This document shows, one piece after another, positions 31,630 to 37,396 of a stretch of DNA of 64,000 bases (positions within the stretch are counted from its first letter, which is position 1; each line of letters opens with the position of its first letter). Source of the stretch: Carboxylicivirga marina (GTDB lineage Bacteria; Bacteroidota; Bacteroidia; Bacteroidales; Marinilabiliaceae); NCBI RefSeq assembly GCF_016612505.1, contig NZ_JAENRR010000001.1:124001-188000 (forward strand), written 5' to 3'. The notes beneath the pieces were generated by a model. It was not told where the DNA came from. It searched no databases and saw nothing but the letters and a program-made list of their open reading frames with translations. The position numbers and the translations under genes are program-made.

Positions 31630-31722
31630 TAACAAGATGAATTATTGATAGAATAAAAAACGCCATTGGTCAAATTAATTATTTCTTTTAACACAATTAA
31701 GTGCTTGAAATCTGTTTTTTTA

Positions 31723-31730
31723 TATTTTTG
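31723..31730 (+). promoter_or_regulatory. -7 box of the RiPP-like cluster
   Basis: TATTTTTG fully matches TAnnTTTG. It lies 21 bases before the GTG start of the PqqD-like gene and predicts a short leader. The expected -33 TTTG is not evident at standard spacing. Confidence 0.5.
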
Positions 31731-31751
31731 CCAAAGTTTTAAAATTTATTA

Positions 31752-32036
31752 GTGGGGAAAACGTTTTACAAAAAACAGACAGGCTTTGTAGAAAAGACTG
31801 TAGGCGATGAAATGGTCATAGTACCTCTTGTTGGTGCAGTAGCGCAAATGGAAAAGGTTTTTTCGCTAAATGAATTGGGTTCGTTTATTTATAACCATTT
31901 AAGTTCGCAGAAGTCAACAACAGATCTTATTAAGTTGATTTTAAGCGAATTTGAGATTGATGAAGAAACGGCTAACAAAGATTTGGAACATTTTTTGAAG
32001 AAAGCCGTTGAAAGTGGTATAATTGAAGAGCTGTAA
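31752..32036 (+). CDS. PqqD-family peptide-binding protein (RRE)
   Basis: 94 residues with the PqqD fold, used in RiPP clusters as the RiPP recognition element: a beta-hairpin near the start, FSLNELGSFIYNHL (the family's L-N-xx-G/A-xx-I/L-W/Y helix), DLIKLILSEFEIDEETANKDLEHFL, and a final helix. The start is GTG at 31752; a later ATG would delete part of the first strand. The gene opens the cluster and is followed after 20 bases by a peptide with a YxxPxL leader, the motif that RREs of lasso-peptide systems bind. I infer that it presents that peptide to the downstream enzymes. Confidence 0.88.
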   Translation: MGKTFYKKQTGFVEKTVGDEMVIVPLVGAVAQMEKVFSLNELGSFIYNHLSSQKSTTDLIKLILSEFEIDEETANKDLEHFLKKAVESGIIEEL

Positions 32037-32056
32037 ATGGAAGCTAATTGGGAAGA

Positions 32057-32272
32057 ATGAAGATTAAAAGAAATTATAGTAAACCAGATTTAGAGGAGCA
32101 TTTAAATGATTTGCAATCATGTTTGTTTATGTTCTCAGATCCTATTACGGACCCAGATGGAGGCGGGCTTAAATCAATGGAAGTGCCTCCTGCTTCAGCA
32201 CCTCCATTTGAAAACCCATCGGCTGCAGATTACCCATTTGGTGGCGATAGCCCTGATTATACCGACATGTAG
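32057..32272 (+). CDS. putative RiPP precursor peptide with YxxPxL leader
   Basis: 71 residues from the ATG at 32057 (preceded by GGAAG); a TTG at 32048 would add three residues. The leader has YSKPDL (Tyr7, Pro10, Leu12), matching the lasso-type YxxPxL recognition motif. PDGGG at residues 33-37 could be a double-glycine-type processing site. The rest (from about residue 38) is acidic, rich in Pro, Ser, Gly and aromatic residues, with Ser40, Ser47, Ser55, Ser65 and Thr69 as possible phosphorylation sites. Only one Cys (22), in the leader half. It sits between the PqqD protein and the kinase, two bases before the latter's start. Precursor role is inferred from context. Confidence 0.75.
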   Translation: MKIKRNYSKPDLEEHLNDLQSCLFMFSDPITDPDGGGLKSMEVPPASAPPFENPSAADYPFGGDSPDYTDM

Positions 32273-32274
32273 CA

Positions 32275-33177
32275 ATGACCAAGAATACTAACACAAGATA
32301 TTATAGCGTAGGGGGCATAAGATTTAAAATAAATTTCTTATCCCCCTTTTTTGAATTCGATAATCAAGGAGGCAGTCGCCTATTCCAAACAGATAAGCAT
32401 TCAAAAGATCAAGAATGGACAATTAATTTTGACATACTAAATCAAAACACACTCACAGATTTCACGTACTCTTTTAAGGGTTCAGAAAGATTCGAGGAAG
32501 AATTACCGTACAAATGGAGCATCATTAACACTAATAATCAAGATGGTATCTTAATTGAGTTTGAAGATAATTTGCCTATAAAAAAAGTTATTGCATTAAT
32601 TGACACTCATAACAATACTATTAATACATTCCTATCACTCTTTAATAATGCCCCTTTAACAATCGACCCATTTTTTCACCCTTTAGGAATATTAATTATT
32701 CAGTACATTATTCATCAACATGAGGGCTTTGTAATACACGCTTCATCGGTTGATTTAAATGGTAAAGGGTATTTATTTTCGGCCGTGTCAGGCACAGGGA
32801 AATCAACTATGGCAAAGATTTGGCAAAGCAAAGGGGCTACTATTATTAACGACGACCGCCTTATTGTTGTACCCGAAAATGATGGCTACCGAATTTACAA
32901 TACCCCGATGCCCTATTATCAGGATAGAAACAAATCAGTACTTTTACACAAAGCATTTATCATCAAGCAGTCTCCGGATAACTACCTTAATGCGCTACCT
33001 GTTTTAAAAGGCACTTTAGGACTTCTGGGTAATTGCATGCAGTTCCAGTACGAAGAAAGTCAAATTCAAAAACGACTAAACGCACTTCAAGGCATAGCAG
33101 AAAAATGTGGCATATACGAATGTGGTTTTAAACCAGATAAAGATATTATTCAATTGATATTAAATGAAGTTGGCTAA
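32275..33177 (+). CDS. HprK-like serine kinase of RiPP type
   Basis: 300 residues. The N-terminal half (1-140) has no known motif; the C-terminal half is an HPr-kinase/PEP-carboxykinase-like nucleotide-binding domain. It has FVIHASSV, the P-loop SAVSGTGKST (residues 169-178) and NDDR near 192-195, the acidic metal-binding motif. The HPr-interaction domain of true HprK is absent. Similar kinases in lasso-peptide loci phosphorylate a serine of the precursor. It lies two bases after the peptide gene and its end overlaps the peptidase-like gene by 14 bases. Kinase activity on the peptide is inference. Confidence 0.82.
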   Translation: MTKNTNTRYYSVGGIRFKINFLSPFFEFDNQGGSRLFQTDKHSKDQEWTINFDILNQNTLTDFTYSFKGSERFEEELPYKWSIINTNNQDGILIEFEDNLPIKKVIALIDTHNNTINTFLSLFNNAPLTIDPFFHPLGILIIQYIIHQHEGFVIHASSVDLNGKGYLFSAVSGTGKSTMAKIWQSKGATIINDDRLIVVPENDGYRIYNTPMPYYQDRNKSVLLHKAFIIKQSPDNYLNALPVLKGTLGLLGNCMQFQYEESQIQKRLNALQGIAEKCGIYECGFKPDKDIIQLILNEVG

Positions 33178-33616
33178 GCACAATATACAAAAAGCACTTA
33201 TCGAGCTTCTTAAAGATGGCCAACAAGTTGAAGTGCCGGCGCATGGAATGAGTATGTTTCCCTTACTTAAACCCGGAGATTCGTTATTGGTTAAGCCATG
33301 CCTTCCTAATATAGGTGACATCAGCGTTTTTATTAAAGGTGAATTATTAATCGCTCATCGTTTGATTAAAATAACGGGCAATACCTATTTTTTTAAAGGT
33401 GATGGACTTATTTTTCCCGACAAACCAGTTGAAAAACAAGATGTATTGGGTGTAGTTACTCAACGAAAACGAGGTAAAAACATCCGAAGCACCAATGGTT
33501 ATACTTATCGACTCTTCAAATTTTTAATGCCCAAATTAACTTTTCTTACCGGACGCTTCTTTTATTATGCCGGGCGTGTATACGGCCGATTCTTTAAGAT
33601 CAAATCTACCACATAA
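33164..33616 (+). CDS. S24/S26 signal-peptidase-like protein (Ser/His type)
   Basis: 150 residues. The S26 signature GMSMFPLLKPGDSLLV is cut here as GMSMFP (Ser30) and KPGDSLLV. The next conserved block is AHRL (His65), followed by KGDG (Asp80). A His in place of the usual Lys is the state of the S26B group (archaeal, ER and SipW-like signal peptidases). There is no N-terminal membrane anchor; the C-terminus is hydrophobic and basic (about 113-150) and may bind the membrane. It overlaps the kinase gene, and could remove the leader of the 71-residue peptide. Enzymatic role unproven. Confidence 0.8.
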   Translation: MKLAKHNIQKALIELLKDGQQVEVPAHGMSMFPLLKPGDSLLVKPCLPNIGDISVFIKGELLIAHRLIKITGNTYFFKGDGLIFPDKPVEKQDVLGVVTQRKRGKNIRSTNGYTYRLFKFLMPKLTFLTGRFFYYAGRVYGRFFKIKSTT

Positions 33617-33727
33617 CACACCTTCGACAAAGTTAAGCCCATCATTATTTGAACGACTTCGAAGCTTTAATGTCCGCTTACTTACAATTTTGTACTATTT
33701 TAGTATTTCATTCATTTTTATGCTTAC

Positions 33728-35509
33728 ATGAAGCCAAGTAATAAGCTTACACTAAACCATCTTTTAGAAACACTGCACCTTGTATATAGGAGTTCACCTA
33801 AATGGACATTTATTAATGCAATTATTACCTCCATACGTGGTTTTATACCGTTGCTTTTATTATTTGTTGTTAAGCAATTAATTGATGTTGTAGGTACGCA
33901 TGTAACTAATAACACGGCATCACCCGAAGCCTTATATACAACGCTGGCCTTAACTGCTGCTTTTTTTCTACTAAACGCAGTTAGTGGCTCGATTAGTAGT
34001 TTGGTTCGTGAGCGACAAAGTCATTTTGTCAATGATTACATCCAGGACATTATTCATAAAAAAACAATCCATATTGCTTATCGTTTTTTTGAAGATTCGG
34101 ATTACCAAAATATTTTCTACAGAGCTTTAAATGATTCCAGTTATCGTCCGGCACGGATATTTTACAGCTTGCTTCAGTTGGCACAAAATACGTTGACAAT
34201 TATATTATTATTAATCGTACTAAGTCAAATACATTGGGCATTGATTCCGATATTAGCCGTTTCAAGTGCCCCGGTTTTTTATTTGAGAATTCTATATACA
34301 CGCAGGCTCTACAAGTATCGGAAAAACCACACTGAAGACGAACGACGGGTTCATTATTTCAATCGCTTACTAACAGGAAAAGATTTTGCCAAAGAGCTTA
34401 GAGTATTCAACCTGGGAAAAACATTTAAAAAGGAGTACGAACATTTCAAACATGATTTGCGCAACAAGCAATGGTCTTTATCTAAAAGAAAAACAATTAA
34501 TGAAATAGCAGTTCAACTATTTTCAACTGCCATTCTTCTGTTTATTATTGCATTCGTCATAAAGCAAACCGTCGAAGGTAATATCAGCGCAGGTACAATG
34601 GCTATGTATTTCTTAGCTTTACAACGTGCCTATTCTGTACTTCAAGGTTTATTAGGCAATTTGAGCTCCTTGTACGAAGACAATTTATTCTTAAAAAACT
34701 TTTTCGAATTTAAAAACATTGAAGTCAAGAGAGAAGTTGGCACAGAGTCTTTTCCAAACCCAATTATCAACCATATAAAGTTTGAAAACGTCAGCTTTAA
34801 ATATCCAAACTCAAGAAAATGGGCTCTTCAAAACATTAACCTGACAATACAGAAGGGAAAGACCATTGCACTGGTTGGTGAAAATGGCAGTGGAAAAACA
34901 ACCCTTGTAAAATTGCTTTGCGGTTTACATGAACCCACCGAAGGGCAACTTCATGTCGACCAACACAATTGGAATAATATCTCAAACAGCGAATTAGCGA
35001 ACAATATCTCAGTTATTTTCCAAGACTTTATGCTTTATAATATAAGTGCTAAAGAAAATATTCGCTTGGGAAATACTCATCGCAAAGATGAACCTGAATC
35101 CGTTGCAGCAGCAGCAGTAAGTGCTGGCATCGACCAGTTATTTAATAACTTACCACATGGATACGATACCACACTAGGTACTCTATTTAAGGATAGTCAG
35201 ATGCTAAGCCGCGGCGAATGGCAACGCACTGCTTTGGCACGTTCGTTTTATAATACCGATGCACAACTCATTATCTTAGATGAACCAACCAGCTCTTTGG
35301 ATGCCTTTACCGAAGCGAGTTTAATTAATCACTTCAGCGACATTGTAAAAGACAAGACCGCGATAATAGTAAGCCATCGACTTTCAACCATTAAGTTAGC
35401 CGACATTATTGTGGTGATGAAAAACGCTTCTATCGCTGAAGTTGGGAGCCCGGAAGAACTTATAGCTCAAAAAGGAATTTACTTTCAAATGATTGAATCG
35501 CTTAAATAG
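33728..35509 (+). CDS. ABC exporter, fused membrane and ATPase domains
   Basis: 593 residues with six membrane helices (about 35-330) and a C-terminal ATPase: Walker A GENGSGKTT (near 384-392), a modified signature LSRGEWQ instead of LSGGQ, Walker B IILDEPTSSLD and the switch His (SHRLST). No C39 peptidase domain is present, so leader removal needs another enzyme, which the S26-like gene could supply. The 111-base gap before it is the largest in the cluster and may hold a second promoter. In this context the substrate is probably the processed peptide. Confidence 0.9.
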   Translation: MKPSNKLTLNHLLETLHLVYRSSPKWTFINAIITSIRGFIPLLLLFVVKQLIDVVGTHVTNNTASPEALYTTLALTAAFFLLNAVSGSISSLVRERQSHFVNDYIQDIIHKKTIHIAYRFFEDSDYQNIFYRALNDSSYRPARIFYSLLQLAQNTLTIILLLIVLSQIHWALIPILAVSSAPVFYLRILYTRRLYKYRKNHTEDERRVHYFNRLLTGKDFAKELRVFNLGKTFKKEYEHFKHDLRNKQWSLSKRKTINEIAVQLFSTAILLFIIAFVIKQTVEGNISAGTMAMYFLALQRAYSVLQGLLGNLSSLYEDNLFLKNFFEFKNIEVKREVGTESFPNPIINHIKFENVSFKYPNSRKWALQNINLTIQKGKTIALVGENGSGKTTLVKLLCGLHEPTEGQLHVDQHNWNNISNSELANNISVIFQDFMLYNISAKENIRLGNTHRKDEPESVAAAAVSAGIDQLFNNLPHGYDTTLGTLFKDSQMLSRGEWQRTALARSFYNTDAQLIILDEPTSSLDAFTEASLINHFSDIVKDKTAIIVSHRLSTIKLADIIVVMKNASIAEVGSPEELIAQKGIYFQMIESLK

Positions 35510-35510
35510 A

Positions 35511-36851
35511 CTAACGAATAACAAAGGTTACACCTCCATAGATACCAAAAGAATATGGCTGAAAATTAAAGTCATCATTTGAACTAACCGAATTAAGGAA
35601 GTACTTAAATCGTGGTTCTAAATTCAATCGAAGCGATTTAAAAACTGGTAATTCAAGTCCCAATCCTACTGAACTACTGAGTACAAATGGTTTTATATCG
35701 CTGGTTTCACCTATCTTCTCTTGCTCTTCACCATCTAATGCATAAGCGGTGTTATTAACCAAAAAGTTAGAACTAATGCCGCCTGCTAACGATAAATACG
35801 GAAAATTCTTAATCAGCGAATAACGAGCCATCATTGGCACCTCAAGATAATCAAGCGTTTGTTTTACAGAACTCATGCTACTCAGCGATGCGTAACCATT
35901 ACTTGCTTCAATTAGATTAGCCTTTCCTGATTGCGCATCCGACATTGGTGATGGATTCTTAACAATTATTGTTCCCATTGAGTTTGCCACTCCAGCATTA
36001 CTCAGTTCATCGGCACTACCAATTACGGAACGAAATGGTTGATAACTATTCGTATTACTCACTTCTTGCCCAACCTGGGCGTATAATACTCCCGTATCAA
36101 AACTCCAACGTGAACCAGTACTTAACCTCAACTGTACGCCTCCACCCATTGAGTTAATACCATTCTCGTTAACTTTTACATTTGAGGATGCCATTACCGG
36201 ACTTCCACCACCTGTGTTCATTTTTGAGTTATAAGCAGGCGAAACAACACCTCCAATACTTAACGAGGTGCGCTTTTTACTTACTTCGTTAGTGGTAGCA
36301 TATATCGGAAAATAAACCTTTTCTTCTTTTTGGTGCAAACTGGTATTAATGAAGTATTCTTCCCTGATATCAATATCATTGTTGGCAGCCAGATAATTCA
36401 TCTTTTCAACATTGTTTGCGTACGCATAAGAATCATACCTTTGATACTTCTTTTGCACTTGCTTTTTTGTTGATTTCTCTTTCGGCACTGCAGGAATTAA
36501 TTCAGGCGAAGCCCCCTGCCCACTACTCAAATGGTCTTTATCAACACTTTTAGTTAATGATACTTCTTCCTTTTCCAGTGTCGCTTTATCACTAATCTCA
36601 TTCTCCTGTATTGAAGCCACTTCTGCCTCAAAAGGTATGACCTCGGTATAATACAAACTAATAGATAAACTTACTAACAATAACACGGAAGCAGCTGCAA
36701 CACTGCGCCATATTACCAACATTCTTTTTTGCTTTTGCTGTTGTGCCAGATTTTTCTCTATTGACTCCCATACATATGCACCTGGCTCTAGCTCGTGATT
36801 TGCCAAACCATCTTTAAAAACAGCATCTATATCTTTTCTGCCCCTTAACAT
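35511..36851 (-). CDS. anti-sigma-like membrane protein fused to an outer-membrane beta-barrel domain
   Basis: 446 residues. The N-terminus (1-45) is cytoplasmic and helical, followed by a single membrane helix (about 45-66) and a charged linker to about 170. The rest is a PorT/OmpA-like beta-barrel domain (SLSIGGVVSPAYNSKM, YGGVTFVIR at the end). It overlaps the ECF sigma gene by 7 bases, the usual pairing of a sigma factor with its membrane anti-sigma factor. A protein with an inner-membrane helix and an outer-membrane barrel would span the envelope; whether both are truly used is unclear. Similar sigma/barrel pairs occur in Bacteroidota. Confidence 0.75.
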   Translation of the reverse strand: MLRGRKDIDAVFKDGLANHELEPGAYVWESIEKNLAQQQKQKRMLVIWRSVAAASVLLLVSLSISLYYTEVIPFEAEVASIQENEISDKATLEKEEVSLTKSVDKDHLSSGQGASPELIPAVPKEKSTKKQVQKKYQRYDSYAYANNVEKMNYLAANNDIDIREEYFINTSLHQKEEKVYFPIYATTNEVSKKRTSLSIGGVVSPAYNSKMNTGGGSPVMASSNVKVNENGINSMGGGVQLRLSTGSRWSFDTGVLYAQVGQEVSNTNSYQPFRSVIGSADELSNAGVANSMGTIIVKNPSPMSDAQSGKANLIEASNGYASLSSMSSVKQTLDYLEVPMMARYSLIKNFPYLSLAGGISSNFLVNNTAYALDGEEQEKIGETSDIKPFVLSSSVGLGLELPVFKSLRLNLEPRFKYFLNSVSSNDDFNFQPYSFGIYGGVTFVIR

Positions 36852-37396
36852 ACTGCTTGCTTTTTCTCCAACAATCTGTTTTCAATACTCTTTTTAAGCC
36901 ATTGCCTGGCGCGTGCTAAATTGGATTTTGATGTTCCTATTGAAATCCCTGAAGTTTCAGCAATTTCGGCATGCGATAAGCCCTCCATCACATATAAGTT
37001 AAACACAAGCTTATATTTTGGCGGTAATTCTTGAATCATAATCAATAATTCATCATGACTAAAAGAGGCGTCATTCACATCCTCAGTAACATCTTCAGCT
37101 AAAAGTGGAAACTCATCAACCAATAACTCAGGTTGTTTTTTACGATAAACTTCAATTACCGTATTTACCATTATCCGACGTATCCAACCTTCAAACGAGC
37201 CTTTAAACCCATACTTATCAATATTATTGAATACTTTAATAAAACCTTCCTGTAAACAATCTTCAGCCTCTGTCTTATCCTTACAATAGCGCATACATAC
37301 GGCAAACATTTTTGCAGCAAAAGTATGGTACAATTGTTTTTGTGCAGAAGCTTTTCCTTTCTGACACCCCTTTATTATGTCGTTAAGATTATTCAC
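36845..37396 (-). CDS. ECF-type RNA polymerase sigma factor
   Basis: 183 residues with sigma region 2 (CKDKTEAEDCLQEGFIKVF, residues about 39-57, and GSFEGWIRRIMVN) and region 4 (LPPKYKLVFNLYVMEGLSHAEIAE, cut here as LPPKYKLVF and GLSHAEIA, then TSKSNLARARQ, the -35 recognition helix). It would direct transcription of envelope-stress or related genes, released from the anti-sigma-like protein downstream. A cysteine in CMRYCKDK and two near the end (AVC) are not known signature sites. Confidence 0.93.
   Translation of the reverse strand: MNNLNDIIKGCQKGKASAQKQLYHTFAAKMFAVCMRYCKDKTEAEDCLQEGFIKVFNNIDKYGFKGSFEGWIRRIMVNTVIEVYRKKQPELLVDEFPLLAEDVTEDVNDASFSHDELLIMIQELPPKYKLVFNLYVMEGLSHAEIAETSGISIGTSKSNLARARQWLKKSIENRLLEKKQAVC

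Follow-up and report, generated by a model that had tools for sequence, protein, structure and literature searches.

Organization of the locus

The stretch of DNA analysed here (hereafter, the window) comprises 64,000 nucleotides of the Carboxylicivirga marina genome (contig NZ_JAENRR010000001.1, positions 124,001 to 188,000 of the forward strand). At window positions 31752-35509 lies a locus that probably encodes a pathway for a ribosomally synthesized and post-translationally modified peptide (RiPP), and its gene content, conserved residues, synteny, co-occurrence and gene neighbourhood were read directly from the sequences. It is composed of five genes, all on the plus strand:

31752-32036, +: discrete RiPP recognition element (RRE) of PqqD fold (PF05402), 94 aa, GTG start
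32057-32272, +: precursor peptide, 71 aa, ATG start, a conserved frame in family loci
32275-33177, +: kinase of HprK/PEPCK fold, 300 aa, with H155, P-loop 172-179 and N192-D193-D194
33164-33616, +: signal-peptidase-like protease of type S26B (SipW/archaeal type), 150 aa, with S30, H65 and D80 or D86
33728-35509, +: MsbA-like ATP-binding cassette (ABC) exporter with membrane and ATPase parts (PF00664, PF00005), 593 aa

The successive gaps from RRE to exporter are 20, 2, -14 (an overlap) and 111 nt, in agreement with an original prediction, made from the letters of the window alone, of five genes in one direction with four of them spaced by no more than 20 bases. In the open reading frame maps of the window and of congeners, the interval from RRE to exporter has no space for an additional enzyme.

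Folds and conserved residues of the encoded proteins

The gene set was compared with the linear polyphosphorylated peptides (LPPs), which were reported from Bacillota in May 2026 and for which the lpp cluster of Paenibacillus alginolyticus is described (PMC13381572, available in passages). According to those passages, experiments on that cluster showed that its RRE binds a YxxP leader, that phosphorylation is kinase-dependent and that S26-type cleavage is assisted by the RRE. LppB contacts the leader through N33, D70 and F74 among others; LppK is required for the phosphate, which is located on Ser3; LppS (S29, H68, D93) cleaves the leader in vitro only with LppB; and LppD is given as the export pump, in the passages by assignment. 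The primary product is a linear phosphorylated peptide (PMC13381572).

The RRE of the window matches the PqqD family PF05402 above cut-off (E = 1.2e-13), and profile matches to the Protein Data Bank (PDB) include TbiB1 (5v1u, E = 3e-4) and LppB (9x8z, E = 0.005). N33, D70 and F74 of LppB align with N40, D77 and F81, all three of which are invariant in 27 aligned RREs; the numbering offset of 18 in this alignment was deduced and is consistent for all three residues.

The kinase matches Hpr_kinase_C (E = 0.003) and the NCBIfam models ScmC (5e-9) and HprK_rel_B (2e-8), all under cut-off, and by profile the HprK structure 1jb1 (E = 0.002). Its predicted model has a pLDDT (predicted local distance difference test) of 91.6, and all 43 Foldseek matches at E <= 1e-3 are to PEPCK or HprK. 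H155, the P-loop (172-179) and N192-D193-D194 do not vary among the 28 sequences aligned, and we assume for them the roles of their counterparts in HprK.

For the protease, matches to archaeal-type signal peptidase I (TIGR02228, E = 1.2e-6) and Peptidase_S24 (0.014) are both under cut-off. The model (pLDDT 93.3) returned 10 Foldseek matches at E <= 1e-3, to LexA and the signal peptidase homologue SipA, and S30, H65, D80 and D86 are invariant in 21 aligned sequences, a set that does not include LppS itself. The exporter exceeds the cut-offs of PF00664 and PF00005 (ABC_tran, E = 6e-31), with MsbA (TIGR02203, E = 7e-79, under cut-off) as its best NCBIfam match. The profile searches agree with the gene types that the original prediction had named, those for the kinase and the protease at scores under cut-off. 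Weak kinase and RRE matches are also shared with the HPr-rel-A/HprK_rel_B/SynChlorMet systems (TIGR04352, TIGR04353, TIGR04355, TIGR04248, TIGR04249), but all fall far below the model cut-offs.

Precursor peptides within and outside the operon

Two sets of genomes were searched: 60 near that of the window (36 of its own family, f1, and 24 of other families of the order) and 395 drawn from the phylum. The peptide of the window carries the leader Y7-x-x-P10, with D18 at +11 and S27 at +20 from the tyrosine, followed by a Pro-rich middle and the C-terminus PFGGDSPDYTDM. Of the other 34 family loci, 25 have it at the equivalent position, including all 13 congeners, and for that reason the frame, whose conservation the original prediction had left to be checked, is regarded as real. 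Among 26 aligned local precursors Y7, P10 and D18 are invariant, and most end in PFGGxxPDYxNM or the shorter PFGGxxPxY. Four loci without a local peptide (L051, L056, L057, L060) belong to genomes that encode a peptide ending in PFGG..PxY elsewhere (G017, G035, G025, G030); there the peptide has therefore moved and not been lost.

A profile of the local peptides gave 86 matches at E <= 0.1 in 36 of the 60 genomes, namely 35 of the 36 family genomes and the other-family genome G047, with 2-5 matches per genome in 30 of the 36 family genomes. Only 26 of the 86 matches are local; 60 lie outside the kinase locus, and the 40 of these that were fetched and read have the same leader and other cores, most ending in NPF-like motifs. 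These dispersed precursors, like the distant nucleotidyltransferase (NTase) described below, lie elsewhere in the genomes and beyond the view of the original prediction. A search of the PDB with the peptide profile returned no match.

In an alignment of 62 precursors (24 local, 38 dispersed; omitting the local L034 and L037, L195 as a near copy of L193, and L201 as doubtful at E = 0.003) Y7, P10 and D18 are again invariant, and the leader consensus is YxxPx[IL]....[IL]DxxISLxMx[ST]. A script anchored on Y..P placed Asp at +11 in 60/62 and Ser or Thr at +20 in 61/62; the exceptions, rows L048 and L054, arose because the script chose a Y..P further upstream, and with the aligned anchor both conform, so that Ser/Thr(+20) is found in 62/62 after L054 is re-anchored. 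Ala or Gly occurs at +20 in 0/62, and the runner-up for Ser/Thr in the range from +8 to +29 has one of the two in 40/62. In more distant loci, with near copies omitted, Ser(+20) is found in 13 of 14 peptides and D(+11) in all 14. The pattern makes Ser/Thr(+20) a candidate phosphate acceptor.

The same residue could also be the P1 position of S26 cleavage, with the phosphate acceptor elsewhere in the core, which would count against the assignment just made. The spacing of a hydrophobic residue at +16, Met at +18 and Ser/Thr at +20 does resemble positions -5/-3/-1 of the Bacillota site IxFET, within the leader consensus YxxPxVLxHQxIxFETxxS given in the accessible passages (PMC13381572). Yet the cleavage motif described there, Px9Fx[T/A], as we read it, permits Ala as well as Thr at P1, whereas Ala and Gly are absent from +20 in the 62 peptides; nor does any other position from +8 to +29 come near to +20 in its content of Ser and Thr. 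A cleavage role for this residue is accordingly judged somewhat unlikely, and Ser/Thr(+20) is retained below as the candidate acceptor.

Related kinases with RREs were also seen on contigs of WOR-3, Syntrophaceae and Deltaproteobacteria metagenome-assembled genomes (MAGs; L146:1490, L148:4574 and L149:9262), where the YxxP peptides have Gly-rich ends that contain Cys.

Distribution and inheritance

The kinase was found in 40 of the 60 genomes: in 35 of the 36 family genomes, strongly in G047 and weakly in four more. The sole family genome without a match, G026, is 72% complete. In 13 of 13 other congeners the RRE, peptide, kinase, S26 and ABC genes occur in the same order with the same flanks. 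At 23 of the other 34 family loci the kinase is adjoined by both S26 and ABC, at 1 by S26 only and at 10 by neither; S26 is nevertheless encoded in 34 of 36 family genomes, both misses being 72-76% complete. It lies elsewhere in 9 of the 10 genomes in which it is off the kinase locus, and G027 (76% complete) has none. Eight of the nine relocated S26 genes were fetched, and an ABC gene is nearby in four (L265, L266, L270, L272; three genera).

Pairwise distances of the RRE, kinase, S26 and ABC proteins correlate at 0.61-0.92 with those of the flanking TsaD, TamB, SmpB and sigma proteins, which speaks for vertical inheritance of the locus. The names TsaD, TamB, SmpB and YIP1 are ones that we presume from reading the translations; of the neighbours, the downstream beta-barrel and extracytoplasmic function (ECF) sigma genes were profile-searched.

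Among the 395 phylum genomes, kinase-profile matches at E <= 1e-5 occur in 92, but only G000, G081 and G171 exceed 150 bits. The next match reaches 93 bits, and the 89 genomes below 100 bits were not counted as having this kinase family. Exactly the same three genomes are matched by the peptide profile at E <= 1e-4. G000 is the genome of the window; G081 and G171 both belong to family f47, which is outside the class of the window's genome, so that together they amount to one independent case. G047, the sole peptide-bearing genome among the 24 of other families, is another. Diverged peptides may escape the peptide profile, which derives from f1 and G047 sequences. A single-protein query found no kinase relatives among viral contigs, and mobility on viruses or plasmids was rejected, with seven plasmids giving partial, distant matches only (<= 50% covered).

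Downstream of the locus, convergent genes for a beta-barrel protein (OMP_b-brl_2) and the ECF sigma factor occupy window positions 35511-37396 and are retained in 13 congeners. Upstream of the RRE start, an AT-rich stretch (31715-31740) contains TATATTTTTG, which resembles what we take to be the Bacteroidota -7 box; scans of the region for sigma-70 promoters and terminators gave nothing beyond the level of shuffled sequence.

Precursors behind genes for secreted cargo

For 26 of the 40 dispersed precursors a gene of more than 150 aa on the same strand ends within 200 nt upstream, and for 23 of the 40 that gene lies 5-49 nt before the precursor and encodes a C-terminal type A sorting domain of the type IX secretion system (T9SS; TIGR04183, with 14 of the 23 above the curated cut-off). 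The remaining three upstream genes (gaps 75-158 nt) gave no TIGR04183 match. By its length limit the test omits a 128-aa gene 1 nt before the L175 peptide, and the gene before the L147 peptide is likewise left out. In family f47, five of six precursors follow a T9SS-domain gene at 32-131 nt, and the gene before the sixth encodes a Dpp5 peptidase. Among 14 peptides from other distant loci (mainly Flavobacteriales and Crocinitomicaceae MAGs), five stand behind a gene with a T9SS-like tail, at gaps of 8-115 nt; four of these were scanned and all four, partly orthologues, matched. The others lie at contig ends (4), behind the RRE (3) or behind other genes (2, both at L140). The nine distant domain matches are all above cut-off. 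In the genome of the window there are 84 matches to the T9SS domain PF18962, by estimate less than 2% of genes, and since the domain is that rare the adjacency looks far above chance, by this estimate and not by a formal test, with many of the cases being orthologues.

In family f47 the RRE is followed, after 28 nt, by a gene (L245:10190-12703) whose 837-aa product carries a T9SS sorting domain.

The same neighbourhood would also suit a different function, in which the YxxP peptides are intracellular adaptor or chaperone proteins made together with T9SS cargo and switched by phosphorylation, and are neither trimmed nor exported as natural products. Many precursors do stand directly behind cargo genes, their C-termini (NPF, PFGGxxPDY) are conserved, as a variable core would not be, no ABC gene was seen in the stretch fetched near S26 in four genomes, and the locus is inherited like a housekeeping operon. 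Such inheritance is unusual for RiPPs. A regulator of this kind would, however, leave unexplained why S26 is kept in nearly every family genome and why ABC moves with S26 in four, and the same type of protease strips the leader in Bacillota, as the passages describe (PMC13381572). An intracellular role is thus considered unlikely, and processing followed by export is preferred.

Comparison with known peptide systems

The locus shares with the LPP clusters a discrete RRE with the contact residues of LppB, an HprK-like kinase, a SpI/S26B protease with Ser, His and Asp, an exporter whose best match, under cut-off, is MsbA, a YxxPx[VLI] leader and the lack of a cyclase in the set. In each system, too, a single Ser keeps a constant spacing from the tyrosine of the leader, at +18 (Ser3) in Bacillota and as Ser/Thr at +20 here. 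By this analogy the locus appears to work like an LPP pathway, and the class, having been described in Bacillota, is not new. The differences lie in the host, in inheritance (vertical and syntenic here, patchy in Bacillota), in the NTase, which belongs to the Bacillota core and lies outside the operon here, and in the dispersed precursors, many behind T9SS cargo genes, with their conserved C-terminus. In the passages available, LPPs are said to be restricted to Bacillota, with a patchy occurrence and a role that is not known (PMC13381572). A literature search covering few subscription journals and preprints found no report of an LPP-like system in Bacteroidota or of a T9SS link.

In the genome of the window, a PF14907 NTase gene (L262:5984-7075, contig C111) lies some 32 kb ahead of where the window begins, next to genes for CstA and the mevalonate pathway. 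As a part of the locus the NTase was rejected, the gene lying elsewhere in family genomes, and it is a possible partner in trans. PF14907 is found near the kinase in G047; at three distant loci, L137, L142 and L247, it adjoins either the kinase or the RRE. The original prediction that no other modifying enzyme is adjacent holds for the congener intervals, where there is none, and not for some distant loci, where an NTase or radical SAM (S-adenosylmethionine) gene is present.

Two loci of family f28 (L247:3939-8367 and L249:3858-8273) contain S26, RRE, a 364-369-aa gene, ABC and an HprK-like kinase. The 364-369-aa gene is a PF14907 NTase in L247, the one of the two that was scanned, and the L247 set adjoins polysaccharide export genes, as described in the passages for Bacillota LPP clusters (PMC13381572). 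At L250:3842-9617 and L251:2898-8132 the RRE, S26 and HprK-like kinase stand beside radical SAM genes, L250 carrying a 668-aa kinase-containing frame; these are maybe radical SAM RiPPs with phosphorylation.

Descent from a degenerate or split lasso-peptide pathway, with the cyclase and B2 peptidase of a phosphorylated lasso system encoded elsewhere, is highly improbable and was rejected: the RRE does best match lasso RREs (TbiB1; the lasso_PqqD model, under cut-off), and paeninodin-type lasso clusters share an RRE, an HprK-like kinase and a [Y/W]xxP leader and also bear an NTase (PMC13381572, in the passages available), but here a dedicated S26B protease is conserved instead, no macrolactam (Asn-synthetase-like) cyclase occurs in the RRE-exporter interval or in the flanks that were named, the scope of that search, and the B2 domain PF13471 is present in 0/36 family genomes against 2/24 of other families in the same search. 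The absence of lasso enzymes had been correctly foreseen.

Proposed pathway and its implications

The locus is likely to encode a RiPP pathway of LPP-like type, a Bacteroidota version of the linear polyphosphorylated peptide system that would act in trans on scattered precursors. The modification and cleavage sites, the chemical steps and the role set out here are inferred from genes and from the analogy with LPPs. The RRE would hold the precursor leader through Tyr-x-x-Pro-x-Ile/Leu, as in the LppB-LppA crystal structure, and the HprK-like kinase would phosphorylate one Ser/Thr, 20 residues after the leader Tyr. Presented by the RRE to the S26B protease, the peptide would be cut near Ser/Thr(+20), in the hydrophobic ISLVM stretch, leaving a linear Pro-rich core for export by the MsbA-like ABC protein. 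One set of enzymes per genome would serve usually 2-5 precursors. In most genomes the operon itself encodes one, and the rest are spread over the genome, often directly behind a T9SS cargo gene. Binding by the RRE, phosphorylation, trimming by S26 and export had all been put forward in the original prediction, and the diagnostic residues, folds and LPP analogy support them; what does not stand is the implied new class, already known from Bacillota (PMC13381572, in the passages available).

Several observations weigh against this reading. The NTase of the Bacillota core is absent from the locus, a PF14907 gene being encoded at another site in 21 of the 22 family genomes searched, and beyond YxxP the leader has D+11 and ISLVM where Bacillota has HQ and FET; because of these two differences the locus is not filed as an LPP member. 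No precursor match was found in G018 and only a doubtful one (E = 0.003) in G016; for several of the more distant RRE-kinase-S26 loci, too, no precursor was recognised nearby. The constancy of the motif was observed in a peptide set gathered with a profile that already contained it, and peptide distances correlate less with those of the flanks (0.45-0.58). In G019, G020, G021 and G033 no ABC gene was seen in the sequence fetched around S26. In the genome of the window only one of four dispersed precursors follows a T9SS gene, and the 23 T9SS cases, many of them orthologues, were judged without a formal enrichment test.

New in these results are an LPP-like locus outside Bacillota, dispersed precursors with one leader, the co-occurrence of the close kinase and these peptides in the same three phylum genomes, and the T9SS adjacency; what would surprise a specialist is the trans-acting layout together with the T9SS link. 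The layout and the single Ser/Thr(+20) yield testable predictions. Because precursors so often stand right behind T9SS cargo genes, the mature phosphopeptides probably work at the cell surface with T9SS proteins or under the same control, and this neighbourhood is a concrete hint as to where such phosphopeptides may act. More tentatively, and as a possibility we regard as doubtful, one RRE-kinase-protease set might mature companion phosphopeptides for T9SS cargo, each cargo protein acting at the surface with its own phosphopeptide partner. Since the pathway is a fixed feature of one Bacteroidota family, a lasting function is more plausible than use as a weapon.

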